IMG/VR virus record: IMGVR_UViG_3300023103_000007
Span: 1 to 52,332 of that record
DNA: 52,332 bases
DNA from: a virus
Strand: one strand, 5' to 3'
This document shows, one piece after another, positions 8,514-17,755 of this stretch (positions are counted from its first letter, which is position 1; each line of letters starts with the position of its first letter). The notes below the pieces were generated by a model. That model was not told where the DNA came from, did no database searches, and was given only the letters and a program-made list of their open reading frames with translations. The translations under genes and the position numbers were made by a program.

Positions 8514-8590
8514 GTGCACCTAGCTCAACTGGTCAGAGCCGACCGCTCATAACGGTCTGGTTGGGGGTTCGAGTCCCTCGGTGCACACCA
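8514..8590 (+). tRNA. tRNA with CAT anticodon (Met, or Ile2 if modified)
   Basis: A complete cloverleaf of 77 bases. The 7 bp acceptor pairs GTGCACC with GGTGCAC, the anticodon stem GACCG/CGGTC holds the loop CTCATAA, and the T arm reads GGGGGTTCGAGTCCCTC. A discriminator A and an encoded CCA end follow. CAT tRNAs may be methionine or, after lysidine modification of C34, isoleucine AUA; the sequence alone does not decide. Confidence 0.93.
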
Positions 8591-8675
8591 GTGAATCCGT
8601 CCCTGCAAGCAGTATAATGGCCCAGGTGTGATAAGGTGAGGTGAGATGTCCTCACGGCGGAGTTCTAGAGATTCA

Positions 8676-8752
8676 GGACACCTAGCTCAGCAGGACAGAG
8701 CAGCTGGCTCCTATCCAGCAGGTCGCAGGTTCGAGTCCTGCGGTGTTCGCCA
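8676..8752 (+). tRNA. tRNA-Arg(CCT), reads AGG
   Basis: A complete cloverleaf of 77 bases. GGACACC pairs with GGTGTTC (one G-T), the anticodon stem GCTGG/CCAGC holds the loop CTCCTAT, and the T arm is GCAGGTTCGAGTCCTGC. An encoded CCA follows the discriminator G. The anticodon CCT reads AGG, which the phage genes use very heavily for arginine, so this tRNA probably compensates for a codon that is rare in the host. Confidence 0.95.
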
Positions 8753-9251: not shown

Positions 9252-10238
9252 ATGGAGATGCACGAGGATGTCTGGCAGAGAGGTGTGGAGAGGTTCTTTG
9301 CCTACGCAAGGGAGAGACATAGTATATACCTGAGAAGACAGCGTGGTGTTCCCAGGAGTGACTGGACCAGTGATCCCATACTCCAGAAGTACAGGTTCAC
9401 CAATGTATTCAGGGAGATAGACGCCACAACTGTGTGGTTCAGGGAGAACGTCAGGAAACACCTGAGCTCCTCCCCCGATGTACTTCTCGCCACTGTTCTT
9501 TTCAGGTGGTTCAATCGCATCAGGACGGGAGAGGCAATATTCTCCCAGACAAGATTAGACACTGAGACACCAGGAGCTACTGCCTGGGATGAGTTAGTAG
9601 GGTCATCCAGCACTGAGGTTGTGAGGTCATCTGTTCTGCAGTACTGCGGGGGAGGACCATACGTCACTGGTGCATACATCATAAAGACTCCTGACGGACT
9701 GGACAAGCTGAGTGGTGTACTCAGGTGTGTTGAGTGGTTCATGACACAGTCCCAGAAGGTCGGGGAGGGTAGGTTTGGTGATGCACTACTGGATCAGGGG
9801 GAGATGAGTCGCATGTTGTCTCGTGAGCCCGGCAGACACTCTCTTGAGTTTGTCTGGGACTGGCTGAGGAGATTCCCATATATGGGTGACTTCATGGCCT
9901 ATGAGGTTGTCACTGACCTGAGGCACACTGACCTGCTGTACGATGCTCCTGACATAATGACCTGGGCCAATCCGGGACCAGGAGCTACGCGAGGGGCAGG
10001 ACGTGTCGTGTCTGGTTATCATGAGGTGTTCAGGAAGTCCAGCAGAGACAGGCAGGAGGTCATGTCTGTAATGAGCAAGCTGCTGAGTCTCAGCAGGAAG
10101 CCTGAGTACTGGCCTCAGGAGGACAGGGAAAGCTGGTCTGTGTGGGAGATGAGGGACGTGGAGCACACACTCTGTGAGTTCGACAAGTATGAGCGTGTAC
10201 GTCTCGGGCAGGGAAGACCAAGAGGGGTGTACAGATGA
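9252..10238 (+). CDS. aGPT-Pplase / HMUDK-helical family DNA base hypermodification protein
   Basis: 328 residues. The N-terminal block matches the helical domain linked to 5-hydroxymethyluracil DNA kinases and to alpha-glutamyl/putrescinyl thymine pyrophosphorylases: ARERHSIYLRRQRG, DWTSDPILQKYRFTNVFREI, then TTVWFRENVR. Family members act on hydroxymethylated thymine in phage DNA. No P-loop kinase domain is fused, so this is the stand-alone form. The ATG follows AGGAGGACGAT. It is the first gene of the cluster, with an ATGA overlap to the dCTP deaminase. The family is recognised with fair confidence; the exact chemistry is not known. Confidence 0.75.
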   Translation: MEMHEDVWQRGVERFFAYARERHSIYLRRQRGVPRSDWTSDPILQKYRFTNVFREIDATTVWFRENVRKHLSSSPDVLLATVLFRWFNRIRTGEAIFSQTRLDTETPGATAWDELVGSSSTEVVRSSVLQYCGGGPYVTGAYIIKTPDGLDKLSGVLRCVEWFMTQSQKVGEGRFGDALLDQGEMSRMLSREPGRHSLEFVWDWLRRFPYMGDFMAYEVVTDLRHTDLLYDAPDIMTWANPGPGATRGAGRVVSGYHEVFRKSSRDRQEVMSVMSKLLSLSRKPEYWPQEDRESWSVWEMRDVEHTLCEFDKYERVRLGQGRPRGVYR

Positions 10239-10744
10239 GTGTACTGTCAGGAACTGAGATATTCAAGTCCAGAGCAGTAGACCCCATGCACGGCAGGTCA
10301 GTGGTGAGTGGGATGAGTTATGGCCTCTCCTACTGTGGGTACGACATCAGGGTCGATCAGGACATAGACCTTGGTCCTGGTGAGTTCAGACTGGCCAGCA
10401 GTGTGGAGAGGTTCACCATGCCAACTGACCTGGTTGGTGTTGTTCATGACAAGAGCACATGGGCGAGAAGGGGTCTCTCAGTTCAGAATACTGTGATTGA
10501 GCCTGGGTGGGTGGGATACCTCACGCTCGAGCTGTCAAACAATCACCCATCATGGATGAGGATGATGCCGGTCTGGATCTCCAGGAGACTGTTCCCCAGC
10601 AGGTGGGTGCACCTGAGGAGGGGAGATCCTATAGCTCAGGTCCTGTTCCACAGGATAGAGAGACCAGTGAAGTGTGGATACACAGGAAAGTACCAGTTCC
10701 AGGAGAGGGGACCAGTTGAGGCCAGACAGGAGATCGCACCTTGA
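10235..10744 (+). CDS. dcd: dCTP deaminase / dUTPase-fold enzyme
   Basis: 169 residues. The fold is shown by SYGLSYCGYDIRVDQD (near 30), HDKSTWARRGLSVQNTVIEP (about 72-91) with GWVGYLTLELSNN, and RRGDPIAQVLFHR near the end. The glutamate in VIEPGW matches the catalytic residue of dCTP deaminases; dUTPases have a different motif there. The likely reaction is dCTP to dUTP, which supplies dUMP to the hydroxymethylase at 12418. The start overlaps the gene before by ATGA. A bifunctional deaminase/dUTPase is an alternative. Confidence 0.85.
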   Translation: MSVLSGTEIFKSRAVDPMHGRSVVSGMSYGLSYCGYDIRVDQDIDLGPGEFRLASSVERFTMPTDLVGVVHDKSTWARRGLSVQNTVIEPGWVGYLTLELSNNHPSWMRMMPVWISRRLFPSRWVHLRRGDPIAQVLFHRIERPVKCGYTGKYQFQERGPVEARQEIAP

Positions 10745-11181
10745 GGACTGTACTTCTCGGTATGAACAACCCACAGGGCAGGGAGGCTCTCCTCCCCGAT
10801 CCCCCAGGATGTACTGGTCACCGCATCTGGAGGATGATTCATGAGAGAACTGGGTGCAGTCAGCAGGAGTACATGGACGCTTTTGACAGGAGGAATGTCC
10901 TTGAGGGCAGCACTGTCTGGGACATATCCAGAGCCTGTGCTGTTGCTCAGTATGTGTGGCTCTCGCTGAGCGGGAGGAGAGTGGTCATTCTGGGTCAGGA
11001 GGTGAGGCGCGTGATGCGTCTGCCTGCTGTTAGGAGTCTCCGCTGGAGTGTGAGTGATGGTGTTGAGTGGTGCGTGATACCTCACCCATCAGGACTGAAC
11101 AGGTGGTACAACAGCAGGGTATGTCGTGGTGCAGTTGCACTCAGGTTGGAGCAACTTTACTTATCTGCAGTATCGAGCTAG
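10741..11181 (+). CDS. Uracil-DNA glycosylase-fold protein
   Basis: 146 residues, TTG start at 10741 overlapping the dCTP deaminase stop. VLLGMNNPQGREALLPDPPG at the start resembles the UDG motif G-x-N-P, and CVIPHPSGLNRWYN near residue 120 resembles the H-P-S-x-x-N motif that inserts into DNA. The middle has RRVVILGQEVRRVM, a typical beta strand with the G-x-x-V turn. UDG-fold proteins occur in phage base-modification clusters. It may remove misincorporated uracil or act on a modified base; the usual catalytic Asp is not obvious. Confidence 0.65.
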   Translation: MRTVLLGMNNPQGREALLPDPPGCTGHRIWRMIHERTGCSQQEYMDAFDRRNVLEGSTVWDISRACAVAQYVWLSLSGRRVVILGQEVRRVMRLPAVRSLRWSVSDGVEWCVIPHPSGLNRWYNSRVCRGAVALRLEQLYLSAVSS

Positions 11182-11184
11182 TGT
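11156..11184 (+). promoter_or_regulatory. Promoter ahead of the glycosyltransferase
   Basis: TTTACT, 17 bases, TAGTGT, with GAGC before the -10. It overlaps the end of the UDG-like gene and is followed by the hairpin at 11193-11228. The -10 is imperfect. Confidence 0.5.
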
Positions 11185-11192
11185 ATGTCATG

Positions 11193-11228
11193 CAGGATCT
11201 CCTGCTGCGAGTTACTCAGGAGATCCTG
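11193..11228 (+). repeat. 12 bp perfect inverted repeat in a leader region
   Basis: CAGGATCTCCTG and CAGGAGATCCTG pair over 12 bp with a 12-base loop, just after the promoter at 11156 and 70 bases before the glycosyltransferase start. No T run follows. It probably folds in the leader RNA. A 27-codon open frame (ATG 11192 to TAA 11275) runs through it and could be a leader peptide. Confidence 0.65.
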
Positions 11229-11297
11229 AGCACTGTGACTCCCATGGCTGGGCTGAGTCAAGTGATCGTCTAAGTGTCCGGCCACTAGGAGAATACT

Positions 11298-12104
11298 GTG
11301 CACATATACATACCGTCAAGAGGTAGGGCTGACCTCATCAGTCGTAGGATCCTGTCCCAGATGAGCCCATCTGCTCTCACCAGGACTACTGTGGTCACTC
11401 ATCCAAGTGAGCTACAGGAGTACACCGACAAGTTGTCTGATAGAGTCACTGTGAGCTGCGTCACTTATGACAATATTGCACAGAAGAGACACCAGATTGG
11501 CATTCTTGCTCAGAGTAGTGGTCATGACAAGTTCGTCATGGTGGATGATGATGTCCAGATCCTCGTCAGGGAGTCAGAGGTAGACTGGCGCCTGGTTGCT
11601 GCTACTCCTGAGCAGGTTGACACTATGTTGGAGATAGTTGAGTCTCAGCTCGACACCTATGTGTCTGTGGCTCTCTCCGGTCGTGAGGGGAACAACAGAT
11701 GTGGTGAGGGTCGCTGGAGTGCACCTAATATGCAGAATGTCTGTGCTCGAGCCATGCGCTTCACTGCCTACAGGACTGGGGACTTCCTGTCTGTTGAGCA
11801 TAATCGTGTTCCAGTGATGGAGGACATGGACGTAACTCTTCAGCTGCTCCGCTCAGGCAGGAAGAATATTGTCCTCAGCTACTGGGCGACTGGGCAGAGA
11901 CAGACGAATGAGGCAGGTGGTTGCAGCTTGTGGAGGACTCGTGAGCTTCATAATGCAGCAGCTGAGAGGTTGGCAGAGCTTCACCCCCAGTTCGTCAAGA
12001 CTAGACAGAAGGTCAACAAGACAGACACTGCTGGTCTTGGAACCAGGACAGAGGTAACTGTGCGATGGAAGGATGCCTACTTGTCGTCAGGAGGAGATCT
12101 ATGA
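11298..12104 (+). CDS. TAGT-type (GT-A) DNA base glycosyltransferase
   Basis: 268 residues, GTG start with the ribosome site AGGAGAATACT. It begins HIYIPSRGRADLI, the signature of TET/JBP-associated glycosyltransferases. FVMVDDDVQILVR near residue 80 supplies the DxD metal site of GT-A enzymes, and RVPVMEDMDVTLQLLRSG near 170 the acceptor-side acidic motif (the same place as E-D in many GT-A folds). The likely role is moving a sugar from a nucleotide sugar onto hydroxymethyl-pyrimidine in phage DNA. No TET/JBP dioxygenase is present; the hydroxymethyl group would come from the synthase at 12418. Confidence 0.8.
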   Translation: MHIYIPSRGRADLISRRILSQMSPSALTRTTVVTHPSELQEYTDKLSDRVTVSCVTYDNIAQKRHQIGILAQSSGHDKFVMVDDDVQILVRESEVDWRLVAATPEQVDTMLEIVESQLDTYVSVALSGREGNNRCGEGRWSAPNMQNVCARAMRFTAYRTGDFLSVEHNRVPVMEDMDVTLQLLRSGRKNIVLSYWATGQRQTNEAGGCSLWRTRELHNAAAERLAELHPQFVKTRQKVNKTDTAGLGTRTEVTVRWKDAYLSSGGDL

Positions 12105-12418
12105 GGAATAGTGTGTACAGACACTCATGCTGCGACTGCTCCGTGGAGAGTGGATACGGTGTGCTGGACAAGTCCGTGGGAGACCACACCCTGATGATTG
12201 CTGGTGTAATCACCAAGTCTATATCAGAGTCTGAGAGTATTGAGAAGTTATCCTGTGGGGCAGTGAGAGTCACGGCTGTGATACTGTCTGCATATCAGCT
12301 AGCAATGACTATTGGTATGTCAGCAGAGGAGCTTGATGAGTGTGCTGAGATTGCACTCCGCATCCACAGAGACACATCGGAGGTCTTCAGGAGGAAGAGA
12401 GAGGGTGAGGTTAACTGA
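12101..12418 (+). CDS. Small hypothetical protein in the modification cluster
   Basis: 105 residues from ATG 12101, which overlaps the glycosyltransferase stop and follows AGGAGGAGATCT. The N-terminus has HSCCDCS, a cysteine group that may bind metal; the rest is helical (RVTAVILSAYQLAMTIGMSA). The next gene overlaps by TGATG. Because it is translated between two modification enzymes it may be an accessory subunit, but I recognise no family. Confidence 0.7.
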   Translation: MRNSVYRHSCCDCSVESGYGVLDKSVGDHTLMIAGVITKSISESESIEKLSCGAVRVTAVILSAYQLAMTIGMSAEELDECAEIALRIHRDTSEVFRRKREGEVN

Positions 12419-13398
12419 TGATTGTACTTCAGGCAAGAAATGTTCGTGATGCATACTACACCATGAGTGACCTCGTCAGGTATCATGGTATAAGAGAGAC
12501 AGTGAGGGGAGGCAAGACTGTCCTGTCTCTTCCTGAGCCCCTCATCACTGTGTATGAGAGACCACAGGAGAGGGTGCTCATTACTCCTAAGAGACGAGCA
12601 AACCCCTTCTTCCACCTGTTTGAGTCCCTGTGGATGCTGAGCGGATCCAGGGACGCGAGGTGGCTGGACCAGTTTGTTCATGACTTCTCCTCCAGGTTTG
12701 CCGAGGATGACGGTCTGCAGCATGGTGCCTATGGTTACAGGTGGCGCTGTCACTTCGACATGGATGGTGGCGACACCCAGCCTCTTGACCAGCTGGATGA
12801 GGTTGTTCATCTGCTCAGGCAGGACAGAGGTGATCGTAGGATTGTCATCAGTATGTGGGATCCTGTCGCTGACCTTGGTCGCAGCTTCAGGGATGTTCCC
12901 TGCAACACTCACTGCTACCTGAGGATAGTTGATGGTCATCTCTGCCTCACAGTGTGCTGTCGCTCGAACGATATGGTCTGGGGTGCATATGGGGCGAATG
13001 CCGTTCACTTCTCTGTCCTTCAGGAGTATCTTGCTGGGCGCATAGGTGTGTGTGTGGGTAAGATGTATCAGCTGAGTAACAACTTCCACGTCTACGAGGA
13101 TATCCTTGGTCGTCTGGAGACGCAGTATGCTCCCCATGACGGAGGTTACTACGGTGTCTCTCCAACTCCAATGGGTGAGGACTGGAGTAGCTGGGACAGT
13201 GATGTTGCTGCCTTTGTTGCTGGTGCAGGGAGAGAGTATGCTAACTCCTGGTTCCACCGTGTTGCTGACCCCATGATGCGTGTACACAGAGCACTCAAGT
13301 CCGGCGATAGGGTGGGAGCACTGGCTCTCTGTGAGCACATAGATGCTCCGGACTGGAGAATAGCCTGCACAGAGTTCCTGACGAGAGGAGAGAAGTGA
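12418..13398 (+). CDS. Deoxynucleotide hydroxymethylase (thymidylate synthase fold), probably dUMP-specific
   Basis: 326 residues. The thymidylate synthase fold is clear: the catalytic block is RDVPCNTHCYLRIVDG (nucleophile Cys near residue 162), followed by CRSNDMVWGAYGANAVHFS and LQEYLA, the form seen in phage dUMP/dCMP hydroxymethylases rather than cellular ThyA (D-x-x-L-P-P-C-H). KMYQLSNNFHVYED corresponds to the H-x-Y substrate motif. It transfers a hydroxymethyl group from methylene-tetrahydrofolate to the pyrimidine. With a dCTP deaminase nearby, dUMP is the likely substrate, giving hmdUMP for DNA. Confidence 0.85.
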   Translation: MIVLQARNVRDAYYTMSDLVRYHGIRETVRGGKTVLSLPEPLITVYERPQERVLITPKRRANPFFHLFESLWMLSGSRDARWLDQFVHDFSSRFAEDDGLQHGAYGYRWRCHFDMDGGDTQPLDQLDEVVHLLRQDRGDRRIVISMWDPVADLGRSFRDVPCNTHCYLRIVDGHLCLTVCCRSNDMVWGAYGANAVHFSVLQEYLAGRIGVCVGKMYQLSNNFHVYEDILGRLETQYAPHDGGYYGVSPTPMGEDWSSWDSDVAAFVAGAGREYANSWFHRVADPMMRVHRALKSGDRVGALALCEHIDAPDWRIACTEFLTRGEK

Positions 13399-13949
13399 TG
13401 GGAGTACTGGACAGTGACAGGGAGAGTGTCACCTACTCTCTTCGGGGAGCGGGGGAGGTGCAGAGGTACCACACCTGGCCAACTATCAGGCGGCAGAGTG
13501 TTGGTGAGCACACCTGGCAGGTGATGAGGATATGGCTCCAGGTGTTTGGTCCCATGTCTCCTGAGGTGAGTACTGCCATACTTCTTCATGATGCTGGGGA
13601 GAGGGTGACAGGTGACATGCCATTCCCATTCAAGAGAGAGGTTCCTGGTCTCAAGGAGATCATGGATGCTGCAGAGGTTGCTGCTCTGCAGAGGATGCTC
13701 GGTGACAGGTGGGAGGACATCTCTGTCCTCACCGACTATGAGAGGATGCAGCTCAAGATCTGCGACCTGATAGAGATGGCTGAGTTCGGAAGCACAGAGG
13801 TCATGATGGGTAACAGGTATGCAGAGACTATTGTTGACTGCACCCTACAGTCAGCTCTGGAAATATGCAGCTCCCTCCCCGATCACCTGTCCTCCTCTGT
13901 CATGTCGTATCTTGATAGTGTCTCTGGTATTATTGTGGAGAACATCTAG
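13398..13949 (+). CDS. HD-domain 5'-deoxynucleotidase (YfbR-like)
   Basis: 183 residues; I chose ATG 13398, TGATG-coupled to the hydroxymethylase (GTG 13395 is possible). The HD signature is HTWQV (first His), LLHDAGERVTGDMPFPFK (His-Asp pair then E-x-x-x-x-D) and KICDLIEMAEF (last Asp). The family removes phosphate from deoxynucleotides. Beside a modification cluster it could destroy the competing canonical nucleotide, for example dTMP or dTTP, so that the polymerase uses the modified one; that is inference. Confidence 0.85.
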   Translation: MGVLDSDRESVTYSLRGAGEVQRYHTWPTIRRQSVGEHTWQVMRIWLQVFGPMSPEVSTAILLHDAGERVTGDMPFPFKREVPGLKEIMDAAEVAALQRMLGDRWEDISVLTDYERMQLKICDLIEMAEFGSTEVMMGNRYAETIVDCTLQSALEICSSLPDHLSSSVMSYLDSVSGIIVENI

Positions 13950-15766: not shown

Positions 15767-17755
15767 ATGGCAAGGAAGCCATCATACACAGGACAGATGC
15801 CACTCTTTAAACCAGAGAGTAGCTGGCAGGTTCCCACTGAGCTGCCGGACCTGAGGGGCGCAGAGCTACTGGCTCTCGACACAGAGACCAGGGACGATGG
15901 ACTGAGCTCCGGAAGAGGACCAGGCTGGGCTACCGGCGCGGGGAGGATCGTGGGAGTATCTGTGGCGGTGACAGGCAGGTCATGGTACATACCAGTGGCT
16001 CACCCAGAGACCCAGTGCTTCGACAGGGAGGCCGTGGGTCGGTGGCTCGGCGACCTGATCAGCAGCGCTGGAGCCTGTGTGTTCCAGAATGCACCCTATG
16101 ATCTCGGCTGGCTCAGGAGGGAGTGGGGCATCTCCCCTCCCCGACAGGTGCACGACACTGTGGCTCTTGCCTATATGCTGGATGAGAATCGCCTCACCTA
16201 TCGTCTGGATGATCTCTGCAGGTGGCAGGGAGTCCCAGGAAAGGATGAGACTGGTCTCCGTGAGGCGGCTGCGGCCTATGGTGTGGACCCAAAGGCTGAG
16301 CTCTGGAGGCTTCCTGCTCGGTACGTAGGTTCCTACGCAGAGAGGGATGCTGAGTCCTGTCTTGAGCTGTTCCACAAGTTTCATCCTCAGGTTGTGGAGC
16401 AGGGTCTGACTGATGCCTATCAGCTGGAGATGGACCTCATTCCCATGATTCTGGAGATGAGGTGGCGTGGTGTCTGCATAGACATGTCTGCGGCTGAGCA
16501 GGTGAGGGGTGAGATGCAGTCCCTGGTGGACCAGAAGCTTGCTGAGATTGCGAGGAACCTGGGATCCTCTCGCCCTGTCGACATGAAAGACGTGAGGTCC
16601 CCAGCATGGCTCGAGAGAACCTTTACTCAGGAGGGGGTTCCCTTCAGCAGAACACCCAAGACAGGGAGAGGATCCTTTGAGTCTAAGTGGATGTCGAAGT
16701 TTGATCACTGGCTCCCCCGGCTGGTCTCACAGGCGACTATGCTTCACGATGCTGGTGAGAAGTTCATACGACAGTACATCATGGATTTTACCCACATGGG
16801 TCGTCTACACGCAGAGATACACCAGTTCCGTGGGGAGGAGCGGGGAGGGACGCGCAGCTATCGGTTGGCATACTCCAATCCTCCCCTGCAGCAGATGCCG
16901 GCTCGTGTGCCGGAGATCTCCAGGGCTATTCGTGGTCTGTTCCTGCCGGAGTCTGGAGACCTGTGGGCTGCTCTCGACTATAGTCAGCAGGAGTATAGAC
17001 TCATTGCTCACTTTGCTGCTGTCTGCAGGATGACTGGAGCTGATGAGGCTGTCGCCAGGTACGAGGAGAATCCCAACACTGACTTCCACCAGATGGTTGC
17101 TGACATGGCTCAGATACCGAGGAAGCAGGCAAAGAACATAAACTTCGGCATCGCGTATGGTGAGGGTAAGCACAAGCTCGCAGCTGACCTGGGTGTTCCG
17201 CTGGACGAGGCAGTGAGACTTCTGGAGTCTGTCGACAGCAACGCACCATTCGTGCGCAGACTGTCAGAGTTCTGCTCCAAGCGTGCTGAGCAGCGAGGAT
17301 ACATAAAGCTGCTCGATGGTGCTCGATCCAGGTTCGATGACTGGGAGCCAAGGTGGAGGGATAGGACAGCAGAGAGTGAGAGTAGACTACCATGCAATCC
17401 CTGCTCTCTGGATGAGGCTCGCAGGAGGATCGCAGACCCACAGCACCCCTGGTCAGGCAAACTGAAGAGAGCCTTTACACACAAGTCCATGAACAGACTT
17501 ATACAGGGCTCAGCTGCTCGTCAGACAAAGAGGGCTATGTTGGCCTGCTGGCGCGAGGGTATCATACCTCTCCTGCAGATGCACGACGAGCTTGACTTCT
17601 CAGTTGGTGATGAGACCATGGCTCGTCGTGCACAGCAGATAATGGTGGAGACAGTCCCCCTCATGGTGCCTGTTGTCGTTGACGCAGAGTTCGGTAGGAG
17701 CTGGGGTGAGGCCACTCACTCAGAGTGGTTGTCAGCTCTTGCCAGTGTCTCCTGA
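15767..17755 (+). CDS. Family A DNA polymerase with 3'-5' exonuclease domain
   Basis: 662 residues, the phage replicative polymerase. Exonuclease motifs: I LLALDTETRDDG (D38, E40), II VFQNAPYDLGWL, III SYAERDAESCLEL. Polymerase motifs: A LWAALDYSQQEYRLIAHFA, B RKQAKNINFGIAYG, C LLQMHDELDFSV. Motif B has phenylalanine (NFG) where T7 and T. aquaticus differ, so it should discriminate against dideoxynucleotides. There is no 5'-3' exonuclease domain. It is the last gene of the rightward arm; its end overlaps a convergent gene by 24 bases. Confidence 0.97.
   Translation: MARKPSYTGQMPLFKPESSWQVPTELPDLRGAELLALDTETRDDGLSSGRGPGWATGAGRIVGVSVAVTGRSWYIPVAHPETQCFDREAVGRWLGDLISSAGACVFQNAPYDLGWLRREWGISPPRQVHDTVALAYMLDENRLTYRLDDLCRWQGVPGKDETGLREAAAAYGVDPKAELWRLPARYVGSYAERDAESCLELFHKFHPQVVEQGLTDAYQLEMDLIPMILEMRWRGVCIDMSAAEQVRGEMQSLVDQKLAEIARNLGSSRPVDMKDVRSPAWLERTFTQEGVPFSRTPKTGRGSFESKWMSKFDHWLPRLVSQATMLHDAGEKFIRQYIMDFTHMGRLHAEIHQFRGEERGGTRSYRLAYSNPPLQQMPARVPEISRAIRGLFLPESGDLWAALDYSQQEYRLIAHFAAVCRMTGADEAVARYEENPNTDFHQMVADMAQIPRKQAKNINFGIAYGEGKHKLAADLGVPLDEAVRLLESVDSNAPFVRRLSEFCSKRAEQRGYIKLLDGARSRFDDWEPRWRDRTAESESRLPCNPCSLDEARRRIADPQHPWSGKLKRAFTHKSMNRLIQGSAARQTKRAMLACWREGIIPLLQMHDELDFSVGDETMARRAQQIMVETVPLMVPVVVDAEFGRSWGEATHSEWLSALASVS

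Follow-up and report, generated by a model that had tools for sequence, protein, structure and literature searches.

Does a viral gene cluster that encodes both a TAGT-family glycosyltransferase and an HMUDK_hel protein direct the glycosylation of thymine, and what does the HMUDK_hel protein contribute to it? The question is raised by the virus record IMGVR_UViG_3300023103_000007 (52,332 nt, taken whole and referred to below as the window), a linear and possibly incomplete sequence, so that the absences reported for it are valid for this record only. It derives from an uncultivated bacterial virus and carries terminase, portal, tape measure and endolysin genes. The cassette at positions 9252-13949 comprises six named genes on a single strand, arranged in one tight block in which several neighbours overlap by 1-4 bases. 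It is probably a thymine hypermodification system of the 5-hydroxymethyldeoxyuridine (5-hmdU) type that ends in glycosylation, with HMUDK_hel as a shared component acting on the DNA side and with no amino-acid route. All six genes named in the initial annotation were recovered at the positions given there, their families being confirmed by profiles and, for the uracil-DNA glycosylase (UDG) protein, by a model with the TDG/MUG fold. A megablast search of the cassette region against phage records returned no match; the comparison was therefore carried out at the protein level.

The nature of the modified base is indicated by the synthase-fold protein encoded from position 12418, which matches phrog_5131 (E = 1.1e-91) and shares 42% identity with gp58 of phage M6. 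In the alignment with E. coli ThyA, T4 gp42 and SPO1 gp29, from which its residues were read, the catalytic Cys is kept, the following His147 is replaced by Asn (Cys-Asn at E. coli positions 146-147), Trp80 is lost and Asn177, the uracil-type residue, is kept. An identical pattern is present in SPO1 gp29, a dUMP hydroxymethylase. In T4, Asp at the Asp179 position decides for dCMP over dUMP (PMC6400193); the window protein has Asn at this position, and its identification as a dCMP hydroxymethylase was rejected on these residues. Because it shares the dUMP-hydroxymethylase residues of SPO1 gp29, with Asn and not Asp, its product should be 5-hmdUMP, and neither dTMP nor 5-hmdCMP. Asn also occupies the base-selecting position in nearly all collected synthase relatives, including that of Brevibacterium phage LuckyBarnes, the exception being locus L021 with Asp.

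The candidate for the glycosylation step is the protein encoded from position 11298, which matches the TAGT family PF20691 (E = 4.5e-24, 86 bits vs a cut-off of 27.5) and phrog_842 (E = 1.5e-38), with the DDD and EDxD motifs intact. The TAGT profile found no match among PDB sequences, and viral contigs scanned with the window TAGT alone yielded no relatives; the diversity of the broad TAGT alignment precluded its use in scans, and TAGT loci were drawn from the HMUDK_hel and synthase scans. The association with TET belongs to the family name: no Tet_JBP match is present in the record at E ≤ 10, and the TAGT of T2 and T6 likewise occurs without TET. In L028, L047, L055, L082 and LuckyBarnes, the TAGT, HMUDK_hel and synthase genes are contiguous, with gaps of -26 to +92 bases, and TAGT and synthase lie in the same gene block across many loci. 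Together with the dUMP-hydroxymethylase residues, this linkage makes conversion of dUMP to hmdUMP followed by glycosylation, as initially annotated, the best reading of the cassette.

The HMUDK_hel protein, encoded from position 9252, matches PF18723 (E = 1.3e-43, 149.8 bits vs a cut-off of 25) and phrog_2396 (E = 1.3e-61), so that, like the TAGT, it exceeds the curated cut-off of its family. PF18723 is the helical domain of 5-hmdU kinase, and the amino acid:DNA transferase (ADDT) is a separate family, PF18724, whose members include M6 gp51 and PaMx11 gp46, the latter listed in the PDB as 'Glycinyltransferase'. In older annotations the name 'aGPT-Pplase' spans more than one family, and ADDT was formerly an aGPT-Pplase clade. 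No ADDT is present in the window or in any of the 13 further records tested that carry both HMUDK_hel and TAGT, in a search in which M6 and PaMx11 were positive. The initial proposal that an aGPT-like protein provides a second route is therefore not supported. The identification of HMUDK_hel itself as an ADDT was also rejected, the profile-profile (hhalign) probability being 5%, which corresponds to a very distant relationship at most. The initial annotation was borne out as regards the lack of a 5-hmdU DNA kinase and a TET dioxygenase, neither of which was found in the window record even at E ≤ 10; a hidden copy of either in the record was rejected on these searches. M6 gp54 and PaMx11 gp49, which we take to be the 5-hmdU kinases of those phages, have a P-loop in the alignment and a gene context consistent with this function. 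As a separate observation, a 5-hmdU kinase without an ADDT-type transferase occurs in L008 and L031 (whole record) and in L006, L009, L014 and L016 (locus only).

The AlphaFold model of the HMUDK_hel protein has a mean predicted local distance difference test score (pLDDT) of 91, and the invariant polar residues R54, D57, D222, C308, E309 and K312 are all present. Its best PDB matches are helix-hairpin-helix DNA glycosylases (OGG1, endonuclease III), at a weak level (best E = 0.78, template modelling (TM) score 0.34), and this glycosylase-like fold is only a hint that the protein may bind or flip the target base. The HMUDK_hel profile gave no match among PDB sequences, and HMUDK_hel was searched for and found absent in both SPO1, with its annotated dUMP hydroxymethylase, and T4, which contains 5-hydroxymethylcytosine (hmC).

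The role of this protein was approached through its partners in 50 whole records, namely 49 with HMUDK_hel (window excluded) and MW202897 without it. Among the 49, 21 records combine HMUDK_hel with the kinase only and 11 with TAGT only; 2 have both and 15 neither. Kinase and TAGT thus tend toward mutual exclusion (Fisher p 0.01, window included and relatedness ignored). In seven of the 15 records with neither, the vicinity of HMUDK_hel and the synthase includes a PF00534-related glycosyltransferase of the GT-B type (L023, L027, L038, L060, L074, L075 and L077; of five scanned, L074 and L027 fall below the Pfam cut-off), and an eighth, L036, has an open reading frame (ORF) similar to GT-B by eye, without a Pfam match. 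GT-B is possibly a second, unrelated enzyme type for 5-hmdU glycosylation. Five others (L039, L049, L065, L071 and L072) carry a class I S-adenosylmethionine-dependent methyltransferase directly upstream of HMUDK_hel; neither kinase nor glycosyltransferase was found in them, and they may produce a methylated 5-hmdU. The last two show no recognised partner. Neighbours of the same kinds surround HMUDK_hel on contigs from cellular genomes, many of which are probably prophage or phage.

Columns conserved in kinase-linked HMUDK_hel proteins remain so when the partner is TAGT, a GT-B enzyme or a methyltransferase, and none of the columns distinguishes the TAGT-linked proteins; a core that is conserved whatever the partner fits a job of HMUDK_hel that is independent of it. 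On a maximum-likelihood tree of 61 HMUDK_hel proteins, from which LuckyBarnes was omitted as a long branch, the TAGT label changes 10 times, the mean after label shuffling being 10.3, and well-supported branches require a minimum of 9 changes; the labels come from the fetched loci, in which distant genes may be missed. TAGT is thus distributed over the tree as if at random. Since it is scattered in this way, yet the HMUDK_hel core is unchanged, HMUDK_hel looks like a shared part that serves interchangeable transferases.

Taking these observations into account, the following sequence of reactions is proposed. The dCTP deaminase would feed the deoxyuridine pool, the synthase-fold enzyme would convert dUMP to 5-hmdUMP, and the HD protein would lower the competing dTMP. 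Nucleotide kinases, presumably those of the host, since none is identified in the record, would raise 5-hmdUMP to 5-hmdUTP, which the family A polymerase would place in DNA. TAGT would then glycosylate the 5-hydroxymethyl group in the DNA, giving a base-J-like nucleotide. HMUDK_hel would work beside any of the transferases (5-hmdU kinase, TAGT, GT-B or methyltransferase), perhaps by binding or flipping 5-hmdU, and we infer that it directs them. A preference for TG/TC sites is recorded for hypermodified phages (PMC6449724).

Several observations weigh against this scheme. In the window, two genes and 1.1 kb separate TAGT from HMUDK_hel. The TAGT of T2 and T6 adds a second sugar, glucose, to hmC that is already glucosylated (PMC13216743); by analogy, the window TAGT may depend on a sugar attached beforehand, and the window record yielded no other glycosyltransferase. 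MW202897 (L093), a complete circular record, contains TAGT, a uracil-type synthase and an HD protein with no HMUDK_hel detected, so that HMUDK_hel is not obligatory, and L021 combines HMUDK_hel with a dCMP-type synthase. Furthermore, the chromosomal relatives of HMUDK_hel, mostly without a nearby thymidylate-synthase gene, keep the core (R54, D57, D222, GPG, C308, E309, K312), which suggests that HMUDK_hel has an activity of its own and argues against a purely passive role. Such relatives occur in apparent cellular chromosomes of haloarchaea (L120, L121, L124), Alphaproteobacteria (L141-L161) and Patescibacteria-type metagenome-assembled genomes (L157-L175).

The persistence of these polar residues, which look like an active site, could also mean that HMUDK_hel is the enzyme of a second, kinase-independent route, with two kinds of modified thymine in the DNA. 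A weak match of its fold model to ADDT proteins in BFVD (E = 8.7e-4) points in the same direction. This is nevertheless unlikely, given the low profile-profile probability reported above, the absence from the record of both ADDT and a kinase for an activated intermediate, and the retention of the residues irrespective of partner. Of comparably low probability is a cassette that only swaps T for 5-hmdU, with a TAGT whose target would be a glycan of the cell surface or of the virion. In its favour, the modification in SPO1-type phages does not go beyond 5-hmdU, and the action of TAGT on 5-hmdU is a prediction. Against it, a direct linkage of the TAGT gene to the synthase and HMUDK_hel genes recurs across many unrelated contigs, the TAGT relatives characterised in T2 and T6 act on DNA, and SPO1 has no HMUDK_hel.

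A third possibility concerns the base itself. TAGT occurs in known hmC systems, and the LuckyBarnes genome is annotated accordingly; a dCMP hydroxymethylase followed by TAGT, in the T-even manner, would make cytosine the modified base. The Asn at the base-selecting position in both the window and LuckyBarnes, as well as the closeness of the window synthase to M6 gp58, renders this the least probable of the alternatives and a very improbable one. Glycosylation of 5-hmdU assisted by HMUDK_hel is thus the preferred explanation. Whether it can be generalised is more doubtful; tentatively, HMUDK_hel might be an interchangeable module for 5-hmdU DNA that serves varied chemistries (phosphorylation, GT-A or GT-B glycosylation, methyl transfer), the TAGT branch leading to base-J-like 5-hmdU DNA in widespread phages.

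With respect to known systems, M6 and PaMx11, which together with ViI represent thymidine hypermodification of the 5-hmdU type and whose products are 5-(2-aminoethyl)deoxyuridine (5-NedU) and glycinyl-T/5-aminomethyldeoxyuridine (5-NmdU), respectively, contain the dUMP hydroxymethylase, HMUDK_hel, HD protein and family A polymerase in an order similar to that of the window. In contrast to them, the window carries TAGT but neither the 5-hmdU kinase nor ADDT nor the enzymes of later tailoring. A further close parallel is LuckyBarnes gp38-gp41, an overlapping block with a uracil-type synthase, TAGT and HMUDK_hel and with neither kinase nor ADDT; it differs from the window in having two TAGT copies and a longer synthase, and neither a deaminase nor a UDG-like gene was found in it. 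The LuckyBarnes paper gives the synthase as a predicted dCMP hydroxymethylase and describes no thymine system. T-even hmC glucosylation (T4 gp42; T2/T6 TAGT) also combines a synthase-fold hydroxymethylase with a glycosyltransferase acting on DNA, as predicted for the window; the active-site residue points to cytosine there and to uracil here, and T4 has no HMUDK_hel. The predicted product resembles kinetoplastid base J, a glycosylated 5-hydroxymethyluracil (5-hmU). For base J, JBP dioxygenases generate 5-hmU within DNA (PMC6449724), whereas the route proposed for the window would produce it at the nucleotide level, by unrelated enzymes.

The combination of both families had initially been called unusual. 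This holds for deposited isolates, where LuckyBarnes is the only one with both among the matches listed, but not for environmental contigs, where the pair is recurrent: at least a dozen other phage sequences have it, and kinase-less HMUDK_hel with TAGT occurs in 11 of the 49 other HMUDK_hel records. According to a 2019 paper, phage genomes containing glucosylated 5hmdU had not been reported, and a full-text literature search with partial coverage revealed no report of it in phage. If the proposed scheme is correct, phages make glycosylated thymine with enzymes unrelated to those behind base J in kinetoplastids, and LuckyBarnes is a cultured phage at hand for proof. HMUDK_hel, so far known as a part of 5-hmdU kinase, would gain a partner-independent role, and the loci would supply new DNA-modifying enzymes of the kind that serve as sequencing and labelling reagents.

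Table 1. Features of the cassette and the downstream polymerase gene in the window.
Feature	Position	Strand	Basis
HMUDK_hel protein (PF18723), 328 aa, standalone, without kinase domain	9252..10238	+	PF18723 profile, AlphaFold model
dCTP deaminase family protein	10235..10744	+	PF22769, phrog_1663
UDG-superfamily (TDG/MUG fold) protein	10741..11181	+	phrog_12275 (1.9e-26), Foldseek
TAGT-family glycosyltransferase (PF20691)	11298..12104	+	PF20691, alignment with intact DDD and EDxD
Small ORF, 117 aa, overlapping the TAGT end; MazG-like at best, gene status uncertain	12065..12418	+	PF12643, E 0.13 only
Predicted deoxyuridylate (dUMP) hydroxymethylase, thymidylate-synthase fold	12418..13398	+	M6 gp58 identity, active-site residues
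HD-domain (YfbR-like) nucleotidase	13395..13949	+	PF12917, phrog_6047
Family A DNA polymerase	15767..17755	+	PF00476 (6.3e-41); downstream of cassette as in M6 and PaMx11

Among the remaining cassette proteins, the deaminase passes the PF22769 threshold (E = 7.5e-16) and matches phrog_1663 (E = 5.6e-43), and at 85.1 bits it stays below the 92.8-bit cut-off of the TIGR02274 equivalog (NCBIfam); it likely supplies dUTP/dUMP. The HD protein (PF12917, 31.9 bits vs a cut-off of 25.9; phrog_6047, E = 4.6e-30) probably lowers the pool of a competing nucleotide, dTMP or another. The UDG-like protein gives a weak profile match (Pfam E = 0.06), and a Foldseek search with its AlphaFold model (pLDDT 91.5) retrieves human TDG and E. 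coli MUG at a probability of 1.00 and a TM score of 0.66, which clearly places the modelled fold in the UDG superfamily, with the TDG/MUG fold, as a putative glycosylase. A protein of this fold is common to many 5-hmdU cassettes, including M6 (gp048, L091 3558-4064); motif I is variable (GMNNP or GQAPG), and HPSG/HTSG is kept. Its presence in an hmU phage is puzzling, because TDG/SMUG-type enzymes can excise hmU.

Outside the cassette, the segment 14733-15119 shows a short match to RecBCD-inhibitor families (phrog_6234, 1.7e-15) and is possibly a second counter-defence gene. Two tRNA genes (Met-CAT and Arg-CCT) are located at 8514-8752, directly upstream of the cassette.

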